From positions 1 to 34,664 of the forward strand of contig LBTZ01000009.1 of the NCBI GenBank assembly GCA_000992325.1: a stretch of DNA of 34,664 nucleotides. Reading direction: 5' to 3'. Numbering within the stretch: position 1 is the stretch's first letter; each line of letters opens with the position of its first letter. Made by a program: the position numbers and the translations under genes. Below, piece after piece: positions 3,652 to 23,240 of the stretch. The notes under the pieces are model-generated. The model saw only the letters and a list, made by a program, of their open reading frames with translations. It had not been told where the DNA came from and did no database searches. Source of the stretch: Parcubacteria group bacterium GW2011_GWD2_38_11 (GTDB lineage: Bacteria > Patescibacteriota > Minisyncoccia > Moranbacterales > GWC2-37-73).

Positions 3652-4644
3652 TCAAAACTTATTAATCTGCAAGTTTATTTCTTCTTCGGTTAGGAGTCCT
3701 TTCTGTCCGCCATATTCCGTCACAGAATTACTGCTGTTTGCGATACCCCATCTTAAAGATTCTGAAAGATCCTTCCCCTTCAAATGAGCTGCAAAAAATC
3801 CACTTGTAAACGCATCGCCTGCACCAGTACTATCAACCACCCCTTTTTGCATCACCGCATCAATATGGAGTACGGTAACTCCATCATAAGCCCAAGCACC
3901 TCTTATTCCATCAGTAACTGCCACTATTTTAGCTCCAATTCCATACAAAGTTTTAACCAAATATTCCTCCTCTTCCAGCAACTCCTGCAGAACATTGTTG
4001 TCATATCCATTAATAATCTCTATTGCCTCATCCTTGTTTACAAACAATACCTCACAGACTGATATTGTTTGAATTATTTTTTTAACATCAGTGTGAATTG
4101 TTTTTTGACGAGGATTAAAAGCGAGATTAACATTTTTCTTTTTTGCAAATAAAATAATCTCATCCGTAATTTTCTGCCAATCACCACTCAAATCTCCAAT
4201 AAATATCCACTCTGGATTTCCCATTCTGTCGGTATCAAATTTTAATTTTTTATTTGCAATATGACTTGAAAAGATAATCCTATCACTACTTTTTTCATCA
4301 ACAATTATTGCGGACAAATCACTCGCACAATCATTTTCCATTTTAACCGCTTGCATTTTAACACCTGTTTCTCTTAATTCTTTCGTAATCCACTTACCCA
4401 CAGCATCATCCCCAATAGTCGTATACGCCATAACATCAACCCCAAGTCTTGAAAGTCCAACCGCAACATTGACACTATTACCACCAAGCGTTTCAAAGCG
4501 CTGCTCTATGGCACATTTTCCTCCAAGCTCAAATGCAAATTTTTTTTGAGACAAAACATCTTCCGGAGTTTCCAAAACAACTCCCTCATTTGTGGGAAAG
4601 AAAATATCCTGGCAAATCGAACCAATTGTAATAACCTTAACCAT
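3652..4644 (-). CDS. PfkB/ribokinase-family sugar kinase
   Basis: This 330-residue cytosolic kinase belongs to the PfkB (ribokinase) family, which phosphorylates sugars or nucleosides with ATP. The sequence shows the N-terminal substrate-loop signature GGNSVNVA (54-61) and the C-terminal signature STGAGDAF (272-279), with the catalytic base expected at D277 and the anion hole formed by GAG. Substrate cannot be told from sequence; adenosine, ribose, fructose or a glycolytic phosphosugar are all possible. The lower-glycolysis gene eno lies 34 bases upstream, so the two are probably co-transcribed and a role in feeding sugar phosphate to glycolysis is plausible. The family's length and both motifs are intact. 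Confidence 0.85.
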   Translation of the reverse strand: MVKVITIGSICQDIFFPTNEGVVLETPEDVLSQKKFAFELGGKCAIEQRFETLGGNSVNVAVGLSRLGVDVMAYTTIGDDAVGKWITKELRETGVKMQAVKMENDCASDLSAIIVDEKSSDRIIFSSHIANKKLKFDTDRMGNPEWIFIGDLSGDWQKITDEIILFAKKKNVNLAFNPRQKTIHTDVKKIIQTISVCEVLFVNKDEAIEIINGYDNNVLQELLEEEEYLVKTLYGIGAKIVAVTDGIRGAWAYDGVTVLHIDAVMQKGVVDSTGAGDAFTSGFFAAHLKGKDLSESLRWGIANSSNSVTEYGGQKGLLTEEEINLQINKF

Positions 4645-4678
4645 TTTTGTACTTTTTGTGATTATTTGTATTTGTAAC

Positions 4679-5977
4679 CTATGCCTTTATTTCCTGTTCA
4701 ATCTTCATCAAACGATTATATTTGCAAAGCCTTTCTCCTCTCGACAATGATCCAGATTTGATAAATTCAGCCGCGGTACCTGCCGCCAAATCAGCAATAA
4801 AATCATCCGTGGTTTCTCCAGAGCGATGTGAAATCATAATTTTCATTTTATTTTTTTTGGCCAAGCGTATGCATTCAAGTGTTTCAGAAAGACTGCCGAT
4901 TTGGTTAACTTTAATAAGCACTGCATTACAAGATTTTTCCTTAATTGCTCGCTCAACACGCTTTACATTTGTCACCAATAAATCATCCCCGACTAACAAA
5001 TTTTCGCTAAGAACATTTTTTGGAATTCCATCCAAGATTTGTTTTCCAGCAATTTTTTCAGTCATAATTTTCCATCCCTCCCAATCATCCTCAGCTAAAC
5101 CATCTTCAACTGACACAACATGATATTTATCAATCCATTCTCTATACATATTAATCAGACGCTCGCGCTCCAAGTGCGCACCCTCCGGTTTAACCAAATA
5201 ATGTTTTTCCTCTTCATCATAAAAATTGCTCGCAGCCGCATCGATCCCCAGATTAATTTCGCTGCCTAAAGTATAGCCACTTTCTGTGATAGCCTGATTA
5301 ATAATTTCCAATGCTTGTGTATTACTTTCCAGCTTTGGAGAAAAACCTCCCTCATCACCAACGCCACTACTATTATGACCGGCTTCGATGATTTTCTTGA
5401 GTTTATGAAATATCTCACTACCAGCTCTCAATTGTTCCTTAAATGTTTTAATCCCGGTTGGAATAACCTTAAACTCTTGAATACTAAGTCCGCTATCACT
5501 ATGCATTCCACCATTAAGCACATTAAACATCGGCACAGGAAGTTTAGGCTTTGTATTTAAACCGGAAATTTCATTGATGTATTGATAAAGTGGAATTTTT
5601 TTTGCCTTAGCAACTGCCCGACAAACAGCCAAGGAAACACCCAGAATAGCATTTGCACCAAGGCGTGCTTTATTTTCACTACCATCAAGTTCAAGCATAA
5701 TTTCATCAACAACCAACTGCTGGGAGGCATCCTTTCCAATAAGTGCATCCTTAATTTTTGTGTTAACATTTTTTACTGCCGTAAGAACGCCCAGTCCGCC
5801 ATAGCGCTGAGCATCTCCATCTCTAAGCTCGAGTGCTTCAAATTTTCCCGTGGATGCTCCAGAGGGAACAGCTGCAACAGCGCTTTCTCCGCCACTCAAG
5901 AAAACTTCAACCTCCACAGTGGGATTACCACGTGAATCTAAAATTTCCCTAGCAATAATATTTTTAATTTTCAACAT
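4679..5977 (-). CDS. eno: Enolase
   Basis: Enolase interconverts 2-phosphoglycerate and phosphoenolpyruvate in the cytosol using two Mg2+ ions. The 432-residue protein has the normal bacterial length. It carries GNPTVEVEV near the N-terminus, the flexible loop S-G-A-S-T-G, the acid/base region VGDEGGFSP, metal ligands in SVEDGLAEDDW and GDDLLVTN, the signature LIKVNQIGS with the catalytic lysine at about 356, and SHRSGETTDD. Translation starts at the ATG at 5977, preceded by GGGGCAAGAAAT. That stretch belongs to the foot of a palindrome (5986-6023) whose relative also precedes the MFS gene start. Enolase, the PfkB kinase downstream and pgk upstream form a lower-glycolysis neighbourhood. Confidence 0.97.
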   Translation of the reverse strand: MLKIKNIIAREILDSRGNPTVEVEVFLSGGESAVAAVPSGASTGKFEALELRDGDAQRYGGLGVLTAVKNVNTKIKDALIGKDASQQLVVDEIMLELDGSENKARLGANAILGVSLAVCRAVAKAKKIPLYQYINEISGLNTKPKLPVPMFNVLNGGMHSDSGLSIQEFKVIPTGIKTFKEQLRAGSEIFHKLKKIIEAGHNSSGVGDEGGFSPKLESNTQALEIINQAITESGYTLGSEINLGIDAAASNFYDEEEKHYLVKPEGAHLERERLINMYREWIDKYHVVSVEDGLAEDDWEGWKIMTEKIAGKQILDGIPKNVLSENLLVGDDLLVTNVKRVERAIKEKSCNAVLIKVNQIGSLSETLECIRLAKKNKMKIMISHRSGETTDDFIADLAAGTAAEFIKSGSLSRGERLCKYNRLMKIEQEIKA

Positions 5978-5985
5978 ATTTCTTG

Positions 5986-6023
5986 CCCCGTTAAATTCTC
6001 CTTTGGCGAGTATTTAATTGGGG
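5986..6023. repeat. 38-bp palindrome upstream of eno, copy 1
   Basis: The palindrome runs CCCCG TTAAAT...ATTTAA TTGGGG and can form a stem of about 13 bp with a few mismatches and a short loop. Its relative at 12690-12726 shares 11 further bases outside the palindrome (TTTCTTGCCCC on the plus strand). In both places a minus-strand start codon follows within 15 bases. The GGGG foot may therefore serve as part of a weak ribosome binding site that the hairpin could mask. Confidence 0.6.
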
Positions 6024-6040
6024 TACGACTTAACTCTTAT

Positions 6041-6652
6041 TTAACTATGCAAACGAATCCAGACAAATATTTGATGCAATGGATCAAAAGAAACCATTAG
6101 CGCCAACAATAAAACATAGTAAGCGGAAAGATATTTCAATGTTATTTCATATTGATCATGATTTGATAATAACCTTTCTGTGTTTTTAATGTTTATTTCT
6201 CGAGCTTTAAAAATAAATTTAATATGAATAGATGCGATCGTTATTATTGATAGCACTAGCAGGATGAAAGCTGGGGCAATAAGACTGTTATATAAAAAGA
6301 ATGTTCCGAAAAAAAACAATGGCAAAATCCAGAATGTCTCCTTATCCCAAAAATCACTTTCTTTTATGAAATTTTTAAGACTGGAAAAATATAAAAATGG
6401 AATAGAAATAAAATTAATGCAAAGACCTATAGAAAAAACAACCACAGTCACCCAATTATATGCACCAAAATAACTACCGGGTGCAAACACATTCAAATTA
6501 TTAAGTAGAATAAACAAGATTCCCAAAAATAACAAAGCTTCTGAAATATATAGTCCAATTATAGAAATTGGATCAACCTGCCTAAGCTCACTTATTGATA
6601 TTTTTCTGTTAAGCACTCCTATATCACCAGCTTTAAATTGAGGACTACTCAT
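6041..6652 (-). CDS. Hypothetical five-TM membrane protein
   Basis: The 203-residue product is not recognised. It has about five hydrophobic segments (near 30-50, 67-88, 106-121, 125-146 and 170-195) separated by short charged loops, and a soluble N-terminal 28 residues. There is no signal peptide cleavage site and no catalytic motif that I can see. The ATG at 6652 starts the frame without a strong Shine-Dalgarno sequence. The gene lies between pgk and eno on the same strand, separated from eno by 63 bases that contain a palindrome. It is probably an integral membrane protein of unknown role. The 208 bases upstream hold no recognisable feature. Confidence 0.6.
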   Translation of the reverse strand: MSSPQFKAGDIGVLNRKISISELRQVDPISIIGLYISEALLFLGILFILLNNLNVFAPGSYFGAYNWVTVVVFSIGLCINFISIPFLYFSSLKNFIKESDFWDKETFWILPLFFFGTFFLYNSLIAPAFILLVLSIITIASIHIKFIFKAREINIKNTERLLSNHDQYEITLKYLSAYYVLLLALMVSFDPLHQIFVWIRLHS

Positions 6653-6860
6653 AATTAAATTTTTTGTATTTAAACATTTTCTCTTGCTTCAGTATAACAC
6701 ATTTGACAGTAAGAATTCAAACAAGCTCCACCGAAAACAAATCGCGATTGCAAATATTTTTTTAATTCCCAATAAGTTAGCTTTAAATCCTGTTTATCAA
6801 TTTTGATATTTTTAAATTTTAGCTATCGAATGCACTGCAGTATCACCTTCCAATTTATTT

Positions 6861-7910
6861 TTACTTTTTTAATCGCAACGCTTCAATTCCAGGCATTTGA
6901 TTTCCACCTAAATATTCCAACATTGCACCACCGCCAGTTGAAACAAAAGATATTTTATCCATAAGGTTATTCTCTTCCAAAACCTGGACTGATTCTCCGC
7001 CTCCAATAAGCGTAAACGCATCACTCTCCACAACTGCATCCAAAATTTCACGTGTCCCAATATCATAGGGCGATTGCTCAAATTTACCCATTGGACCATT
7101 CCAAACAATCACCTTAGATTGCGCAATCACTTCCTTAAATCTTTTAATCGTTGCTGGTCCAATATCAAGGCGATCATCAGCAAAGTCAATTGGCAAAATA
7201 ACTTTTTGTGAAAAAGCTATACCCTGATCAATGGCTTCATTGGCTATTTTTCCGCCAACCAAAATGTGCGCATAAGCGCCTTCAAATCTCTTTATGAGTG
7301 GCAATTTGGTTTCAATCTTAGCCCCGCCAATGATAGCAGTTGCCGGACTTTCCGGCTCATGAATAACTCGATTAAGATTCTTGATTTCTTCTTGAAGCCG
7401 AAGTCCGGCATAACTCTCAATATATGCAGTAACCCCAGTAACCGACGCTTGATCGCGATGACAAACGCTAAATGCATCATTCACAAAAACATCAAAATTT
7501 TCGGCAAGTTTTTTGGAAAATTCGGAATCATTTTTTTCATCACCGTCATAAAAACGAACATTTTCCAAGAGAATAATCTCTCCGGGCGCAAGATCTTCCA
7601 ATGCTTTTGTAACAGAACCACCGATACAATCATCAACAAAAACAATCTTTTTTTCCAATATCGTCTCGAGTTCATCCTTAATTTGCCCAAGAGAAAAATC
7701 ACCATTCTTCTTGCCTTCAGGACGACCAAGATGCGAAATTAATGCAATTTTTGATCCTACTTGAGCTGACAAGTGATCGACGGTTTTTTTACATACTTCC
7801 AATTTAAATTTTTCTTTAACGTCGCCATTTTCAATTGCAACATTAAAATCCGCTCTAACTAAAATTTTTTTATTAAGAAAGGTCCCTTCTTGAATTTTTT
7901 TAATATCCAT
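6861..7910 (-). CDS. pgk: Phosphoglycerate kinase, short form
   Basis: Pgk transfers phosphate between 1,3-bisphosphoglycerate and ADP. Family motifs are clear: VRADFNV near the N-terminus, SHLGRPEG, LLENVRFYDGDEKND, VNDAFSVCHR, the GGAK hinge, DIGP, VWNGPMGKFE and the C-terminal GGGE...STGGGAMLEYL. With the ATG at 7910 the protein has 349 residues (a TTG two codons upstream is less likely), against about 390-400 in most bacteria. Most of the shortage lies between GGAK and DIGP in the nucleotide-binding half. Two substitutions stand out. The catalytic Arg of the usual DxxRI motif aligns with Lys (K36), and the Mg-binding Asp of GGGDS is Glu. The enzyme acts with eno and the PfkB kinase nearby. 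Confidence 0.92.
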   Translation of the reverse strand: MDIKKIQEGTFLNKKILVRADFNVAIENGDVKEKFKLEVCKKTVDHLSAQVGSKIALISHLGRPEGKKNGDFSLGQIKDELETILEKKIVFVDDCIGGSVTKALEDLAPGEIILLENVRFYDGDEKNDSEFSKKLAENFDVFVNDAFSVCHRDQASVTGVTAYIESYAGLRLQEEIKNLNRVIHEPESPATAIIGGAKIETKLPLIKRFEGAYAHILVGGKIANEAIDQGIAFSQKVILPIDFADDRLDIGPATIKRFKEVIAQSKVIVWNGPMGKFEQSPYDIGTREILDAVVESDAFTLIGGGESVQVLEENNLMDKISFVSTGGGAMLEYLGGNQMPGIEALRLKK

Positions 7911-17520: not shown

Positions 17521-17699
17521 AGTTTTTAAAGTTTGTAAGGTTATAAGGTTCGTAAAGTTATTGTATCAAATTTTTGCCTTATTGCAAGCAAAAAAACAGC
17601 CCTGTTATCATTCCCACGAAAATGGGAATCAAGAACTGTTTTTTTTCATTTTGCATTATAAACCTTACAAACTTTAAGAACTTTACAAACTTTACAAAC
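17521..17699. repeat. Inverted AT-rich words flanking a hairpin
   Basis: Left-hand words AAAGTTTGTAAGGTTATAAGG (split at 17526-17550) and right-hand words AACCTTACAAACTTTAAG (17660-17677) are near-perfect complements. They bracket the hairpin at 17589-17646. The whole spacer could form one large cruciform. It contains no gene. Confidence 0.45.
17589..17646 (-). terminator. Rho-independent terminator built on a REP-like hairpin
   Basis: Read on the minus strand, AAAAAAACAG and CTGTTTTTTT pair around an inner ATTCCCA/TGGGAAT hairpin, and a run of T follows. It lies downstream of the kinase fragment at 17700 and would end that transcript. Its inner stem resembles the REP-like element at 16155-16223. 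Confidence 0.6.
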
Positions 17700-17942
17700 T
17701 TACCCCATATGCTCTACTGGTATTTCAATAATAAACCTTGATCCCATCCCGGCGCCGTCGGATTCAACCCAGACTTGGCCGTGGTGTGTTTCGGCGATGG
17801 CTTTGCCGACATATAGACCAAGGCCTGTGCCACCGACGTGAAGACGCGACACATCTTTGCCACGAGAAAACTTTTTGAAAAGATATGGAATTTCCTCTTT
17901 TGGAATGCCGATACCGGTGTCTGAAACAGTGATACGAATCAT
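17700..17942 (-). pseudogene. Duplicated 3' end of a sensor histidine kinase gene
   Basis: The 80-codon frame encodes the end of a HATPase_c domain: the G1 box DTGIG, the G2 box GTGLGL and the C-terminus. The phosphoacceptor His and N box are missing, so it cannot be a working kinase alone. It matches the last 80 residues of the complete kinase at 20688-22403 with 78 identities, yet the aligned 260 bases differ at 30 positions, nearly all silent. Homology continues upstream in frame to about 17961 (codons for KSEFGK) and stops close to the TAA of the preceding gene at 17973-17975. This is either the remnant of a second full kinase whose 5' part was replaced by the neighbouring cassette, or a small ATPase-lid protein kept by selection. 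Confidence 0.75.
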
Positions 17943-17972
17943 TTTTCCAAATTCAGATTTTTGTATATAGAG

Positions 17973-18668
17973 TTACTTTTTAATAAAAATGATTGCCTCA
18001 TCTAACAGGTTTTGGAAGTCTTTATTTTTTGACCAAATTTCACCTAGTTTCTTCCTTAGCTTATCATGTTCTGGATATCCACCATCGCCAGATAAAATAA
18101 TTGAATTGAATTCAGCTTGATCCAATAAGAAAGTTAGAGATTCTTTCAAATCCTCAATTTGATCATTTGTCAGACCTTTCTTTTTCAAATAATTTCTATA
18201 GTAATATAAAAACTGAAGATGCATGATCTCGTGGCAAATTGTCGTGATTGAAAATGGAATACTATGCCACATGGAAACCATGAACCAACTTTCCTTTTCA
18301 CTATATGGACACATGAAGCCCGTAGTAAAATAGCAATCAAATTTATCAGTAAAAATAGGCTTTCCAGTTATATCTGAAAGTATTTTGAAATATTTTTCCG
18401 AAACAAGATGCCATGATTTTTCCAGCGCCTGCATTTCACTTTTCATGACTTTACTTTTATATATTTTTTTCGAATCTTTTTCAATATGATTTTCAACGAT
18501 TTTTTGAGCGCCAGCAAAAGTTGCTTTTTCAATTTTAACCAAGAGATCATCTGGGATTTGAGGAATTTGCTCACGCCAATTAAGACCCCAGATATTTTTA
18601 TCCTTGGCAATAAGCACCCAGCTCCAAGCATCCTTTTTTAAATTGTAATTGAAATTTAGTTTATTCAT
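17973..18668 (-). CDS. HEIMH-motif protein, possible metalloprotease
   Basis: The 231-residue protein is not recognised as a named family. It has H146-E-I-M-H150, an HExxH zinc-binding motif in a hydrophobic helix (SITTICHEIMHLQFLYYY, 140-157). A Glu at 176, in DLKES, is a possible third ligand, as in gluzincin peptidases. There is no signal peptide or TM segment, so it should be cytosolic. It is the last gene of the peptide-radical SAM-GNAT cassette, 49 bases after the GNAT gene. Leader cleavage of the precursor peptide is an attractive guess from context only. Its stop lies 12-15 bases from the point where kinase-duplicate homology begins. Confidence 0.6.
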   Translation of the reverse strand: MNKLNFNYNLKKDAWSWVLIAKDKNIWGLNWREQIPQIPDDLLVKIEKATFAGAQKIVENHIEKDSKKIYKSKVMKSEMQALEKSWHLVSEKYFKILSDITGKPIFTDKFDCYFTTGFMCPYSEKESWFMVSMWHSIPFSITTICHEIMHLQFLYYYRNYLKKKGLTNDQIEDLKESLTFLLDQAEFNSIILSGDGGYPEHDKLRKKLGEIWSKNKDFQNLLDEAIIFIKK

Positions 18669-18717
18669 ACCTTAAGTACCCAGGTTCAAGTTTCTATTTA
18701 AAAATGCAAATTTATTT

Positions 18718-19149
18718 TTATATGTTTTTTTCCATTATAGCTTCAGTATATTTCAAATTGAATCCGGATTTTTCATAAAGAGCAACAGCAGAAGCATTGT
18801 CTGTACGAACCTCTAAAGTCAATTTTTCTACTCCCAATTTTCCAGCCTCTTCTTCTAGAAGAGAAAGTGATTGAAAACCATACCCTTTTTTAGTAAAAGG
18901 CTCATCAACCATCATAACAACTCTTCCAATTTTAGATTGAATATTCATAAGAACAACATACCCAATTGGAAGATTATCCAACTTAATACAATAACATTTT
19001 CTATCTTCCTCATTCCGAATCATTTTCAAAGTATCTTCTTCTGTTCTGGCCTGCCTGAGCATGTATTTGCTATTATTGGGGTTGGTATACCAACCCATCA
19101 AGATGGGAAGATATTTTTTATCAAAAATTTCTAAACTAATTTTATTCAT
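18718..19149 (-). CDS. GNAT-family N-acetyltransferase
   Basis: The 143-residue protein has the GNAT layout: an N-terminal beta-alpha region, then motif A with V-x-x-x-x-(K)KGYG (about 88-96, where the acetyl-CoA pyrophosphate loop is usually Q/RxxGxG/A), and the motif B region LTLEVRTDNASAVALYEKSGF, which is typical of RimI-like enzymes acting on protein or small-molecule amines. The substrate is unknown. Its place between the radical SAM gene and the HEIMH gene suggests acylation of the modified peptide, or self-protection. The ATG at 19149 has no good Shine-Dalgarno sequence and follows a strong hairpin (19163-19194). Confidence 0.85.
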   Translation of the reverse strand: MNKISLEIFDKKYLPILMGWYTNPNNSKYMLRQARTEEDTLKMIRNEEDRKCYCIKLDNLPIGYVVLMNIQSKIGRVVMMVDEPFTKKGYGFQSLSLLEEEAGKLGVEKLTLEVRTDNASAVALYEKSGFNLKYTEAIMEKNI

Positions 19150-19162
19150 AATATTTTTAAGT

Positions 19163-19194
19163 TAGGGGGGATTTTTTTCCATAAATCCCCCCTA
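19163..19194 (-). other. 12-bp intercistronic hairpin
   Basis: TAGGGGGGATTT and AAATCCCCCCTA form a perfect 12-bp stem directly after the radical SAM stop codon. No T-run follows on the minus strand (ACTTAAAAATATT leads into the GNAT start), so it looks more like an mRNA processing or stability hairpin than a full terminator. It may lower expression of the two distal genes. Confidence 0.6.
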
Positions 19195-19196
19195 TT

Positions 19197-20195
19197 TTAA
19201 GATTTGCACCAGCAACCTGCATCTTCACCGCAGATACTACCAGTTAAATAATAAGCTGAAGCCCTGCAACCTCCACATTGAAATTTGTAGTCACATGCTC
19301 CGCACTTACCCTGAAGATTTGATCGCAGGGACCTTGCAATAGAAAAGGCCTCAGCATCTCTCCAGATAGATCTTACAGTTTCTCGTTTCACATCTCCACA
19401 ATAAACTGGGAGGCATGGGCACAGCAATACCGAACCGTCTTGGGCGATATACATAATGTTCAATCCGATTGAACATCCACCTACCTTACCTTCCTCAAAT
19501 TCCTGTTCATTTAGCAAAAAACGAGAGAACGGATCACCCAAAGAAAGACGCATATCCAATTCTTTAGCCCTATTGGCCAAAGTAGTAAACAAAACCTTCA
19601 ATTCTTCAGGTTTCAGTAATTCTACTGACCCACCCTTACCTGTTGGAACTACACGCCTGATAGCATAAATACTTGCGCCAATATCATGTGCAAATTCCAG
19701 AAGAGAACTTGCTTCATGTGCGTTCTCCCTGTACACAGTAGTACGAATAGTAACAGGAATTCCAGCATCTATCGCATATTTAATGCCCCTTGTGGCCTTT
19801 TCCCAGGTGCCTGTTTTTCCCCTGATTTTATCATGCAAGGCAGGGTTGAAAGCGTCCAGGGATATTTGCAATCCCTTAATATTTTTATCAGCCAACCGCT
19901 TAGCAATTTCTTGGGTGATCAAAGTTCCGTTTGATAACACATAGACCTCTTCAATTATATCGGTCGCGAGACCAAGAATTAAAAAGAAATCTTTATGCAT
20001 CAATGGCTCACCTCCTGCCAGAGCCACCATCTTACAGCTCATCTGACTCACTTGAGTTATCACTGAAGACCACTGATCAAAACTCATACTATCCGGCAAA
20101 TCTGCCTCATTGGTTTGCCGACAAAATGAGCAAGTCAAGTTACAGTTTTTGGTTAAATCGATTTGACAACTGTCTATCACATCTCGGATATCCAT
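19197..20195 (-). CDS. Radical SAM/SPASM peptide-modifying enzyme
   Basis: The 332-residue enzyme has the radical SAM cluster motif C18-NLT-C22-SF-C25 and the GGEP motif (AGGEPLMH). After the TIM-barrel comes a SPASM domain with extra cysteines for auxiliary Fe-S clusters: GGCSIG, GSVLLCPC, then CGACDYKFQCGGC and a final SICGEDAGC. This arrangement recalls PqqE, mycofactocin MftC and sactipeptide maturases, which crosslink Cys or other side chains in ribosomal peptides. The ATG at 20195 is chosen because GGGAGG lies seven bases upstream; the TTG at 20201 is too close to it. A short Cys-rich peptide gene lies directly upstream, its likely substrate. Its base composition looks less AT-rich than that of its neighbours, which fits gene transfer. 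Confidence 0.9.
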   Translation of the reverse strand: MDIRDVIDSCQIDLTKNCNLTCSFCRQTNEADLPDSMSFDQWSSVITQVSQMSCKMVALAGGEPLMHKDFFLILGLATDIIEEVYVLSNGTLITQEIAKRLADKNIKGLQISLDAFNPALHDKIRGKTGTWEKATRGIKYAIDAGIPVTIRTTVYRENAHEASSLLEFAHDIGASIYAIRRVVPTGKGGSVELLKPEELKVLFTTLANRAKELDMRLSLGDPFSRFLLNEQEFEEGKVGGCSIGLNIMYIAQDGSVLLCPCLPVYCGDVKRETVRSIWRDAEAFSIARSLRSNLQGKCGACDYKFQCGGCRASAYYLTGSICGEDAGCWCKS

Positions 20196-20210
20196 TTTCA
20201 ATCCTCCCTT

Positions 20211-20249
20211 AAAAAAATGCGGGGAAAGCTCTGAAAGAACTTGCCCCGC
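20211..20249 (-). terminator. Terminator/attenuator between peptide and radical SAM genes
   Basis: On the minus strand GCGGGGCAAG pairs with CTTTCCCCGC (6 bp, one mismatch, 3 bp) and is followed by A then TTTTTTT. It lies between the precursor stop (20279) and the radical SAM start (20195). Partial termination here would make far more peptide message than enzyme message, as is common in RiPP operons. Confidence 0.7.
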
Positions 20250-20278
20250 TGGTTTTAGTTTAACCTCTTTGTCTCAGC

Positions 20279-20422
20279 TTAATCGCAACAGATACGACAG
20301 GTGTCGTTTTTGGATTGATTAAATCTGACACTGCAGCCCGAGCTTGAATTGAGTTGCTTAACTTCTTTGAAAACGAAGTCAGGCGGAAGAACAACATCTT
20401 TGACTTGAATAATGGATTTCAT
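20279..20422 (-). CDS. Cys-rich 47-residue RiPP precursor peptide
   Basis: This small gene encodes 47 residues. The first part (about 1-27) is leader-like, with charged and hydrophobic residues (MKSIIQVKDVVLPPDF...). The last 20 residues are core-like and hold all four cysteines (C30, C42, C45, C46), Ser, Thr and Asn, ending in Asp. There is no signal peptide or TM segment. Support for translation is strong: AGGAGG lies five bases before the ATG at 20422, and a near-consensus promoter lies upstream (20556-20584). A radical SAM/SPASM gene follows on the same strand after an attenuator. I infer a substrate for that enzyme, giving thioether (sactipeptide or ranthipeptide) or other Cys crosslinks. 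I recognise no known peptide family. Confidence 0.8.
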   Translation of the reverse strand: MKSIIQVKDVVLPPDFVFKEVKQLNSSSGCSVRFNQSKNDTCRICCD

Positions 20423-20555
20423 AGACTCCTCCTTTCGTAAAAATGGAAAGAACTGCACTTCCCTGAGAAAGTCCCAAGGCCCGAAAATTATCCGATGATA
20501 ACATTCAGAGATCTAACAAAAAATACCAACGATTCTCAATCAGAGCTCTAGGAAT

Positions 20556-20584
20556 ATTATCCATCATAATATGTTTTTAGTCAA
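20556..20584 (-). promoter_or_regulatory. Sigma70-type promoter for the peptide cassette
   Basis: On the minus strand the -35 TTGACT (20579-20584) and -10 GATAAT (20556-20561) are separated by exactly 17 bases. Transcription would start near 20549, leaving a 5' leader of about 125 bases before the peptide ATG. The leader contains GGGACTTTCTCAGGG-type complementarity but no riboswitch that I recognise. Confidence 0.75.
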
Positions 20585-20614: not shown

Positions 20615-20645
20615 AAAAAATAGCACCGCTAGTGTGCTATTTTTT
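20615..20645. terminator. Bidirectional rho-independent terminator
   Basis: AAAAAATAGCAC and GTGCTATTTTTT form a perfect 12-bp stem with a 7-base loop, giving T-runs on both strands. It lies after the histidine kinase stop (20688) and before the peptide promoter, so it isolates the peptide cassette from kinase transcription. Confidence 0.85.
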
Positions 20646-20687
20646 ATACCTCATAGAAAATAGGAAGAATTCAAAAATTCACCAAAT

Positions 20688-22403
20688 TTACCCCACATGT
20701 TCCACTGGAATCTCGATAATAAAGCGAGAGCCCAGACCGGCGCCATCTGATTCAACCCAAACTTGACCGTGATGTGTTTCGGCGATGGCTTTGCCGACAT
20801 ACAAGCCAAGGCCGGTGCCACCAACATGAAGGCGTGAAACATCTTTTCCACGTGAAAACTTTTTGAAAAGATATGGAATTTCCTCTTTTGGAATGCCGAT
20901 ACCGGTGTCGGAAACCGTGATACGAATCATTTTTCCAAATTCAGATTTTTTTCCAACAATAACAAATCCATTTTCATCAATTACGACGCCATCTTCTCTG
21001 AGTTCAGCTTTGACTGTTGCACCTCCCTTTTCAGTATATTTGAGGGCATTATCGATAAAATTGGAAACCAACTCTCGAATTTTGGAATAATCCATCACAA
21101 TCTCCGGCAAAGGATTTTCAGGCAATTTGATATCCAAATAAAACTTTTTGTTTTTAGCGATTAAAATAAAATTATCATAAAGCTCCTTGATCAATTTTTC
21201 AACACTACCTTTTTCAAAAGAAAATTGCATTCTGCCAGATTCAATGCGTGAAACATTCAAGAGATCCTCAACCAAATTTACCAAGCGCTCTGCCGAAGAA
21301 TACACTTTTTCCAGCGCGCTATGCACACTCTCACTCACCTCTCCATACGACCCTTCCAGCAAAAGCGAAGAGAAACCCTTAATTGCTGTGATCGGCGTGC
21401 GCAATTGATGAGAAGCAATCGAAATAAATTCCGTCTTAGCATTGTCCAATTTTCGCAGCGAATCATTCGCAGTCGCCAATTTGTCAGCCATAAGCTGAAG
21501 CTGTTCTTTTCTTTCAGCCTCTTTTTTGACTGATTTGATCAAGAAATATCCAAATCCAACAGAAAGTGCAAGCGTGATTCCAGTCAAGATCTTGTTTGTA
21601 TCGTTTTCAATAAAGAAAAACTGAGAGCCAATCAAAAGAACCAACGAAACAACCAACGCCTGAGCACCAAGAAGCTTGATCTCAAAAGCATTATATTTCA
21701 CAATCAAAAAAGCAATGGCACCCATAAAAAAAGTCATTCCAAAGAGCCCATATTGATCAATCTCAAAAGCATATGGAACACCCTTATTATCCAAATAACT
21801 TCCCAAAAAGCCGGTTACGAAGTAAGAAAACAAAAATAATTCAATTCCAGCCACTAAATATATTATTTGTTTTTTAAATATTTCTTCCACCTTCTTGTAT
21901 TGAAAAAAAGCAACAAACAATATCCAGACAAGGATAATTAAACTTAATCCATTATAATAATAAACATATTTTATATTATCCACCGCTTCACAATCAACAG
22001 CATTAAAGCTTTTCAGGTAAAATGGCATCAAAAAAATAACTGGCGACAAGAGCAAAAAGATTACACCCTTGGTATTGAAACTTAGATCATCCTTTTTTAT
22101 ATAAACATATGCAAAATAAAAAGATGAAATAAAAATCAAGGATGTCAAAACACCCATCATTGACCAAACAAACATTATCAGCCTACTATCAACACTAATC
22201 CAAGTTATTAAATTGCAAACTAACCATGAAGAAAATATTATTGAAATTGCTAACAATATTCTGCTAGATAAATCCTTACTCTTCAAGAAAACCATAAAGC
22301 CCACCAATAGTGAAATTACGGCCGTGGGTATATGTGAATAATATAACAAACTAGGAATTTCTATATAACAACTTCCGATGTTAGTAATGAGATTGTATTC
22401 CAT
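20688..22403 (-). CDS. Multi-TM sensor histidine kinase
   Basis: The 571-residue membrane kinase has a 7-8 TM N-terminal region (about residues 20-290) of the 7TM sensor type, then a short coiled linker (295-325). The HisKA domain carries H332 (IASHQLRTPITAIKG), and the HATPase_c domain has the N box NFIDNALKYT (449-458), G1 DTGIG (499-503) and G2 GTGLGLY (529-535). It should autophosphorylate in response to a membrane or small-molecule signal. No response regulator is adjacent; the nearest is the double receiver at 14193-14990. It follows the 274-residue gene at 22416 by 12 bases, so the two are an operon. The 3' 260 bases are duplicated at 17700-17961. Confidence 0.93.
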   Translation of the reverse strand: MEYNLITNIGSCYIEIPSLLYYSHIPTAVISLLVGFMVFLKSKDLSSRILLAISIIFSSWLVCNLITWISVDSRLIMFVWSMMGVLTSLIFISSFYFAYVYIKKDDLSFNTKGVIFLLLSPVIFLMPFYLKSFNAVDCEAVDNIKYVYYYNGLSLIILVWILFVAFFQYKKVEEIFKKQIIYLVAGIELFLFSYFVTGFLGSYLDNKGVPYAFEIDQYGLFGMTFFMGAIAFLIVKYNAFEIKLLGAQALVVSLVLLIGSQFFFIENDTNKILTGITLALSVGFGYFLIKSVKKEAERKEQLQLMADKLATANDSLRKLDNAKTEFISIASHQLRTPITAIKGFSSLLLEGSYGEVSESVHSALEKVYSSAERLVNLVEDLLNVSRIESGRMQFSFEKGSVEKLIKELYDNFILIAKNKKFYLDIKLPENPLPEIVMDYSKIRELVSNFIDNALKYTEKGGATVKAELREDGVVIDENGFVIVGKKSEFGKMIRITVSDTGIGIPKEEIPYLFKKFSRGKDVSRLHVGGTGLGLYVGKAIAETHHGQVWVESDGAGLGSRFIIEIPVEHVG

Positions 22404-22415
22404 GCGTATTTGTAT

Positions 22416-23240
22416 TTATTTTAGATTAATATTTTTTAAAGATAAATTATTCTTCACAGCATAATCAATTATGAACTCATTTACATTTGGCGGATAACTC
22501 CACCAATAAAAATCCTCAAGGTCGGTTTGATTTTGTGGATATTGCCTTATAATTAAGGGTTTTAGTCCGAATTTATTCTGAATTTTTTCAATTGCTGGCA
22601 ATATTATATTTTGAGCAAAATCAATATTGCTCTCGTCAACATCAAAAAAAAGTTCACACAACGCTCCATGAGCAACAAAATGAAGCAAGAGATAATAATA
22701 ATAATCTGATGCTTTACCAATATTTTTAAACCAATCAGAATTCTCCAAAAAATCAACTTTATACCCGAGCAAATTAACCAGATTATGATGAAAATCAATC
22801 AGGCTTTCACCATTTTTTAAAACACATTCGCCCAATTTATTTTTTTCATTTTCAGAAAAATTCATAACATCAACCATTGCAGTGGATCCATCCTCCAATG
22901 TTACGCGTAATCGACCCAACCCCTTCTTATCCTCATTGAGATGTGTGAATATATCCTCATGATATTCCAAAACAATTGGCATTGCACCAATATAGTTCGA
23001 ACATTGACAAAAAAAAGTAAACCCATTATCAGGAGAACAAACCTGCCTAAATGAAACCGTCCTCGGAATTTCATAAAATTGAGACATAAACTTCTCACCC
23101 AATTCATCCTCTATTCTCTTTTTCAAATCAGTATCCGCCCATCTCTTTTTTATCTCTTCCCTGGCCTCATCCAAAGACACATATATATCTTCTCCATTCA
23201 TACTTGATATACAATTTAAAAAATATTCAACCAAATCCAC
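22416..23240 (-). CDS. Hypothetical protein, paralogue of 30840-31655
   Basis: I recognise no family for this 274-residue, apparently cytosolic protein. It is clearly related to the protein at 30840-31655. Shared blocks are an N-terminal helix (SLDEAREEIKKRW / PLSVAKEEVWKRW) followed by an ELGE/YLGE turn, a central block (GESLIDFHHNLVNLLGY / GENLVDFHYRLLESYG) and a C-terminal block (FGLKPLIIRQYPQ / FGVKPLIVPLLPQ). The conserved DFH in the middle could be functional. The gene is 12 bases upstream of the sensor kinase, so its product may tune that kinase. The ATG at 23240 has no clear Shine-Dalgarno sequence. Confidence 0.7.
   Translation of the reverse strand: MDLVEYFLNCISSMNGEDIYVSLDEAREEIKKRWADTDLKKRIEDELGEKFMSQFYEIPRTVSFRQVCSPDNGFTFFCQCSNYIGAMPIVLEYHEDIFTHLNEDKKGLGRLRVTLEDGSTAMVDVMNFSENEKNKLGECVLKNGESLIDFHHNLVNLLGYKVDFLENSDWFKNIGKASDYYYYLLLHFVAHGALCELFFDVDESNIDFAQNIILPAIEKIQNKFGLKPLIIRQYPQNQTDLEDFYWWSYPPNVNEFIIDYAVKNNLSLKNINLK

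Follow-up and report, generated by a model that had tools for sequence, protein, structure and literature searches.

Among the enzymes that mature ribosomally synthesized and post-translationally modified peptides (RiPPs), the ranthipeptide maturase PapB, a radical S-adenosylmethionine (SAM)/SPASM enzyme found beside a Cys-rich precursor, links Cys to the Asp β-carbon within Cys-X3-Asp motifs and tolerates spacings of 0 to 6 residues (PMC9413430). Other systems to be considered here are the SkfB sactipeptide and CteB thioether maturases, FibroRumin (TIGR04136/TIGR04135), ACGX (TIGR04340), and the α-ketoglutarate HExxH hydroxylases ChlB, BpmH and PflC, whose RiPP clusters include one with a GNAT protein (PMC12636437). 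In the candidate phyla radiation (CPR), graspetides have already been reported (PMC8939145), which involve ATP-grasp ligases instead of radical SAM enzymes; the original prediction on the locus described below, according to which RiPPs are little described in genome-reduced symbionts, has to be corrected to that extent. We analysed a 34,664-nucleotide stretch, contig LBTZ01000009.1, of Parcubacteria group bacterium GW2011_GWD2_38_11 (the whole stretch is referred to as the window; the genome as searched is 90 % complete), which bears a cassette of a short peptide, a radical SAM/SPASM enzyme, a GNAT acetyltransferase and an HExxH protein. With a probability of roughly 80 %, the peptide and the enzyme are a RiPP precursor and its maturase. 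We read the cassette as one of a RiPP family concentrated in Patescibacteria, whose type belongs to the already known radical SAM RiPPs.

The anatomy of the cassette was observed directly. All its parts lie on the minus strand, in the order promoter-like site, peptide, hairpin, radical SAM/SPASM enzyme, GNAT and HExxH (HEIMH) protein. The gene of the 47-residue peptide (20279..20422) encodes a leader-like part (residues 1-29) and a core with C30, C42, C45 and C46 that ends in C-x-I-C-C-D. A Shine-Dalgarno sequence, AGGAGG (20428..20433), stands 5 nucleotides before its ATG, and TTGACT-N17-GATAAT (20556..20584) is the best sigma-70-like match of the region (10 of 12 positions), by consensus only; taken together, sites of this kind are no commoner in the real sequence than in shuffles. 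Between the peptide and the enzyme there is a terminator-like hairpin (GCGGGG..CCCCGC) with a run of seven T (20211..20249; -23.1 kcal/mol, z -1.95). It is followed by the predicted peptide maturase of 332 residues with an ATG start (19197..20195), the GNAT acetyltransferase of 143 residues (18718..19149) and the HEIMH protein of 231 residues (17973..18668), a putative gluzincin-like metalloprotein of a CPR family without a name. The parts, coordinates, residue numbers and single strand of this set had been given correctly in the original prediction, as had the promoter and the strong ribosome binding site (RBS) before the peptide; the hairpin, and the two copies of a kinase gene end that flank the cassette (see below), had not been mentioned there. 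Its grouping of all four genes into one cassette held for the HEIMH protein, which recurs with such cassettes, but not for the GNAT, which was not seen to recur, has no close homologue elsewhere in the order and is tied to the cassette by position only.

The pairing of peptide and enzyme is carried above all by their closest relatives. Homologues of the enzyme at E 1e-15 occur in 26 of the 131 genomes of the order, its own genome counted. The closest orthologue (39 % identity over nearly the whole length) belongs to Candidatus Moraniibacteriota M55B143 (genome G502, JAGYNK010000102.1, locus L027), a member of the same order, in keeping with the earlier description of the genome as CPR-like. 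Directly upstream of it lies a gene for the peptide MIMKGKKNKNGILSVKDLKISKDFIFKEIDKIDGPICSICCDCCLCETGGV, with a GTG start, a strong RBS of its own and a hairpin after it. Common to this peptide and that of the window are VKD, DF[VI]FKE and C-x-I-C-C-D, and the leaders alone align in pairwise BLASTP with an E-value of 2e-6 (24 aligned residues, 38 % identical). The lack of a homologous small Cys-rich frame beside the enzyme in related genomes had been named as the finding that would count against a cassette; the closest orthologue has such a frame, with the same leader and the same core. This homologue in the same position beside an orthologous enzyme, together with the absence of Cys-rich open reading frames with a Shine-Dalgarno sequence by 226 control genes, argues that the peptide is more than a product of chance. 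Five other members of the genus yielded no relative of the enzyme better than 1e-30. The E-values of the peptide profile for the window and L027 peptides are self-matches and were not used as evidence. Weak matches of this profile in other genomes (E 0.005-0.1, and one at 2.5e-4 in a 322-residue frame at L137) lie mostly in long or broken frames and were rejected as members.

The enzyme has the features expected of a radical SAM/SPASM protein by Pfam (both Radical_SAM and SPASM above cut-off), by Cys motifs and by its structure model. The radical SAM cluster motif CxxxCxxC is formed by C18, C22 and C25, and the SPASM set (CX9-15GX4C, CX2CX5CX2-3C, C) is complete, with C241-X12-G254-X4-C259, C298, C301, C307, C310 and C328; these Cys are invariant in the clade save C328, which is kept in 90 % or more. 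Both fold and sequence place the enzyme closest to RiPP maturases. Its model (predicted local distance difference test score, pLDDT, 81.9) aligns best with SkfB (Z 29.4 over 279 residues, root-mean-square deviation 2.8), followed by SuiB (27.7), CteB (25.8; entry 5why), anSME (25.4) and ChlB (25.0), rows less than one Z unit apart being counted as tied, and a sequence profile search of solved structures placed SkfB first, then 5wgg, PqqE and SuiB; 5why and 5wgg are structures of CteB. Unlike SkfB and CteB, the window enzyme begins with the radical SAM domain and has no N-terminal RiPP recognition element (RRE), its model aligning from SkfB residue 100 on, and its precursor is unrelated to theirs in sequence. 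PapB resembles the window system in setting a radical SAM/SPASM enzyme beside a Cys-rich precursor, and the CPR tail C-x-I-C-D corresponds to Cys-X3-Asp. However, the window enzyme is far below the cut-off of the PapB model NF047865 (340 bits), which is outside its best 25 models (L027 and L005 score 71 and 78 bits), it lacks an RRE, the window tail is C-X4-D, and the cross-link here is only predicted. The peptide and the HEIMH protein match no NCBIfam or Pfam family, and the FibroRumin enzyme model is not among the best 25 for the window enzyme, all of which accords with the earlier remark that no known class could be recognised.

The same pairing recurs in a wider group of enzymes. In a tree of 179 domains, the window and L027 enzymes stand together (support 0.993) within a group of 29 dominated by CPR members (0.774) and separate from the archaeal homologues; one node deeper, support is almost nil. 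Roughly 85-215 bases upstream of enzymes of the CPR group, short basic peptides of 20-37 residues are encoded, each led by an RBS and ending in C-x-[IT]-C-[DST]: MKKPKQKKRLKVRIGQNGCRTCDTNG (L003), MKKRNKPETKKPRITVRIGKGSCGICD (L004), MKNKVVKKRIKVRIGKGSCSICD (L005), MKTGLKKRVAVKVLKCRCMTCDVN (L007), MQPEIKKKPEKKRVKVRIGKGSCSICD (L031), MQPEIKKKPEKKPEKKRVKVRIGKGSCSICD (L272), MKTRIRVRILKCRCFTCDSN (L273) and, in their C-terminal parts, ...KKRVIKARIGKGSCAICS (L009), ...KKPVKRVRIGKGSCTICD (L030) and ...IRKARIGKGSCGICD (L214), GTG starts being written as M. The typical tail, GKGSC[SGTA]ICD (in general form C-x-[IT]-C-D), is nearly invariant between distant CPR lineages; in control stretches, 2 of 395 short frames led by an RBS had a C-terminal CxxC. 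The check that had been proposed, whether the pair is conserved together in related genomes, thus gave a positive result both in the closest orthologue and in this wider clade. A hairpin between peptide and enzyme is also present in L027 and in most other pairs (-17 to -31 kcal/mol). Upstream of the L027 pair there is a methyltransferase gene, with relatives at 50-57 % beside the L004, L005, L009, L030, L031, L272 and L214 pairs. This shared gene connects the ICD type with the leader of the window type; the window cassette is without it. A second link is provided by L214, which carries both the HExxH family and a GKGSCGICD peptide and so joins the two types. Radical SAM enzymes that recall the ACGX system (L035-L037; L035 at 248/400 bits, below the cut-off) lie in the same broad CPR clade with CxxCTG peptides just downstream, that is, on the opposite side of the enzyme, and these peptides are without the window leader. 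At L005 and L272, a conserved and possibly structured 5' leader (TTAGTTCTTTAACAT..AAGTCCTATTTCT) occurs about 100-200 nucleotides upstream of the peptide and has no Rfam match; the Rfam search of the 5' leaders returned no riboswitch.

The near-invariance of the GKGSC[SGTA]ICD tail across distant CPR lineages, so unlike the fast change of bacteriocins, raises the question of the role of the product. A small redox cofactor or a metal carrier could be built on the peptide, in the manner of pyrroloquinoline quinone or mycofactocin, and would serve metabolism rather than being exported as a signal or antimicrobial. Such a role would be compatible with a RiPP precursor and its maturase; no transporter adjoins the cassette, and the PqqE and MftC models match the enzyme too. 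However, the window tail is longer and different, no dedicated oxidoreductase adjoins, and the patchy occurrence of the enzyme within the genus better fits an accessory trait than a core cofactor. We hold this role to be rather unlikely, though it fares best among the alternatives.

Further support for a peptide-modifying cassette comes from the HExxH protein, whose recurrence beside such pairs was observed directly. The protein has relatives at 55-78 % in five other genomes of the order, and 30 of the 380 CPR genomes sampled contain a member of its family. Of the 40 HExxH loci (367 kb), 19 have a radical SAM/SPASM gene no further than about 5 kb away (10 kb in L216), against none of 40 control stretches (433 kb, mostly from the same genomes; Fisher 2e-7); some of the seeds of the profile used came from these very loci, and two or three matches are gene pieces, but at 17 of 40 the value is still 2e-6. 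Cys-rich RBS-led peptides occur within 250 bases of 9 of 18 radical SAM genes at HExxH loci, of 7 of 49 other CPR radical SAM genes (one false match and the L027 pair itself included) and of none of 226 control genes; a match at L028 proved to be a piece of another radical SAM gene and should not be taken for a peptide. The peptides at these loci vary, from FibroRumin-like (G505) through acidic CDCD-type (L199, L202, L204, L220) to GKGSCGICD (L214), and PapB is the closest model for the enzymes of L154 and L199, which are PapB-like. Such diversity suggests that, in CPR bacteria, the HExxH protein accompanies Cys-peptide cassettes in general. At L149 of G505, a genome of the same order, a FibroRumin-like radical SAM enzyme and a Cys-rich peptide (MLLIPKDEHYRKVLGNLESKVAMNLKCGACASCTGGGGGQACKCTGVGRVIKKP) are directly followed by an HExxH homologue (5842-7444); the system scores below the FibroRumin cut-offs (280/400 bits; peptide E 1e-4) and its HExxH protein is 75 % identical to that of the window, the peptide of which matches no FibroRumin model. 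At L220 (G077; 4519-6397), several different Cys/Asp-rich peptides of the CDCD type surround one radical SAM and one HExxH gene.

What the HExxH protein does is a separate problem. Among 36 aligned members H146, E147 and E176 are invariant and H150 is kept in 90 % or more, so that the HExxH motif and the downstream Glu ligand of gluzincins, 25 residues past the second His, are both present; judged from these residues, the family would suit a gluzincin protease. Foldseek returned no match to its model (pLDDT 82.6) below E 0.001, and the best fold matches, the catalytic domains of leukotriene A4 (LTA4) hydrolase and aminopeptidase N (Z 6.0-6.8, 143-152 residues, root-mean-square deviation 3.2-3.6), are within the range of chance or common arrangements. 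We favour, at somewhat less than even odds, a metallopeptidase that removes the leader; a second modifying enzyme is less likely. One such enzyme would be a peptide hydroxylase that uses iron and 2-oxoglutarate, as ChlB-HExxH, BpmH and PflC do, since HExxH proteins in RiPP clusters have proved to be such hydroxylases and the pfl cluster holds a GNAT too (PMC12636437). However, none of the 36 members matches any NCBIfam HExxH model (up to E 0.01), and the extra invariant E176 with the weak fold match to M1 aminopeptidases suits a zinc gluzincin better. The absence of the ChlB HExxH domain from the PDB match lists for the model decides nothing. Moreover, most CPR bacteria live by fermentation, many of them in the absence of oxygen, which does not favour a hydroxylase, and we consider this function unlikely.

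A quite different view of the enzyme would be that it belongs to tetrapyrrole biosynthesis, as a radical SAM enzyme for heme b or heme d1 (AhbD/NirJ2 type), with the small frame incidental. The enzyme matches many NCBIfam models of radical SAM maturases and heme enzymes, the best being AhbD (201 bits) and NirJ2 (197 bits), and more distant archaeal homologues seem to lie in heme loci (in L053 with a HemD-like fragment upstream, named by eye). These scores are, however, far under the cut-offs of 500 bits, as are all others under theirs; the genome has only one enzyme of this kind and no AhbC-like second one; the tree sets it in a CPR clade apart from the heme enzymes, albeit with a weakly supported deeper node; and the peptide is co-conserved with it. 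A heme function is thus highly improbable. Equally improbable is that the short frame is not a gene and resembles the L027 frame by coincidence: the alignment covers only 24 leader residues at 38 % identity, but its E-value of 2e-6 was obtained in one comparison, and the same position, the same C-x-I-C-C-D tail, an AGGAGG of its own and a hairpin after both frames speak for a gene.

Several points nevertheless weigh against a precursor and its maturase. By score, the nearest NCBIfam models are those heme enzymes, albeit with values far under the cut-offs; this exact type of leader has been met in just two genomes; the peptides had already been seen when their C-terminal motif was defined; and core length differs between the window, with its 18-residue Cys span, and the relatives. 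The HExxH protein matches known folds only weakly (Z below 7) and no transporter adjoins the cassette. An RRE, fused or separate, is common though not universal among radical SAM RiPPs; the enzyme has none and the genome yielded no PqqD-like protein, which leaves leader recognition to be accounted for.

For the precursor and maturase we infer the following course of events, in which all the chemistry, the leader/core boundary, attenuation and the protease role are proposals. Residues 1 to about 29 of the precursor (VKD...DFVFKE) would be the leader by which the precursor is recognised, and modification would fall on the Cys tail (C-x-I-C-C-D). The hairpin likely attenuates transcription between the genes, which would yield more peptide than enzyme. 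The enzyme would take hydrogen from a core residue by means of a 5'-deoxyadenosyl radical and bond that carbon to a Cys sulfur. By analogy with related families, formation of thioether cross-links of some kind at the Cys tail is about evenly balanced. The most likely link would be Cys-to-Asp, of the ranthionine type, or a thioether between Cys and a neighbour; C-x-I-C-D in the relatives is a Cys-X3-Asp motif, and in the window C42-R-I-C-C-D47 has spacing 4. Taken on its own, the Cys-Asp bond remains doubtful. The HExxH protein would act on the peptide afterwards, most likely by removing the leader.

A broader proposal, which we would put clearly below even odds, is that of a RiPP system of Patescibacteria's own, in which a precursor of as few as 20-37 residues, its C-x-[IT]-C-D tail almost constant, a SPASM enzyme without an RRE, a methyltransferase dedicated to the system and the HExxH protein yield a conserved small molecule, cofactor-like or host-directed, kept through genome reduction; the window would then be a diverged, laterally acquired branch. 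The host interaction of epibiotic, genome-reduced Patescibacteria is largely obscure and dedicated small molecules have rarely been ascribed to them, so a predicted modified peptide that is conserved together with its maturase and short enough for synthesis is a directly testable candidate. For RiPP enzymology it would offer a predicted SPASM maturase that has no RRE and acts on a minimal substrate, and the new HExxH partner family can be used as a handle in genome mining. The recurrence of the pairing, with a shared short Cys tail, in many related bacteria points to a family of modified peptides that we did not find described. Our literature search turned up no publication that deals with peptide cassettes of the radical SAM kind in these bacteria, or that joins Parcubacteria, radical SAM and precursor peptide, which is weak evidence as subscription journals were thinly covered.

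The borders of the cassette bear on its origin. On the right is the 3' end (20644..20943, minus strand) of an intact histidine-kinase gene (20688-22403), and on the left a second copy of that end, an 89-codon remnant (17656..17955, minus strand; 84 % to 20644-20943), the two forming a 300-nucleotide direct repeat. Over 89 codons (87.6 % identity) they differ in 26 synonymous and only 4 non-synonymous codons, as alleles of different species do, a pattern that points to recombination with a relative's DNA. Four sister species of the genus have no cassette here: proS comes next after the kinase, 150-660 bases away. G410 has an HExxH protein and another GNAT between kinase and proS, and G414 has an HExxH protein beside proS; the kinase-proS interval is thus a recurrent site of variation. 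The GC content of the cassette genes is mixed (radical SAM gene 42 %, HExxH and GNAT genes 32 %, window 36 %). Recombination at the kinase 3' end is the probable route by which the cassette arrived. There was no sign of a mobile-element carrier: in phage, plasmid and viral-contig records the enzyme found remote radical SAM proteins only, or nothing, and the HExxH protein had no match in phage or plasmid records.

Next to the kinase, the window encodes a 274-residue protein (22416-23240) of no Pfam family, with relatives at about 31 % in the same place in two sister genomes. Elsewhere, the gene immediately upstream of a radical SAM gene in a Riflebacteria genome (L119, 3470-3920) encodes a protein whose C-terminal tail is GGCGGGCGGGCGG. 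In Moraniibacteriota, one 14-kb contig (L155; contig C37 of G504) carries five radical SAM genes, a methyltransferase and other enzymes, and may represent a multi-enzyme peptide cluster.

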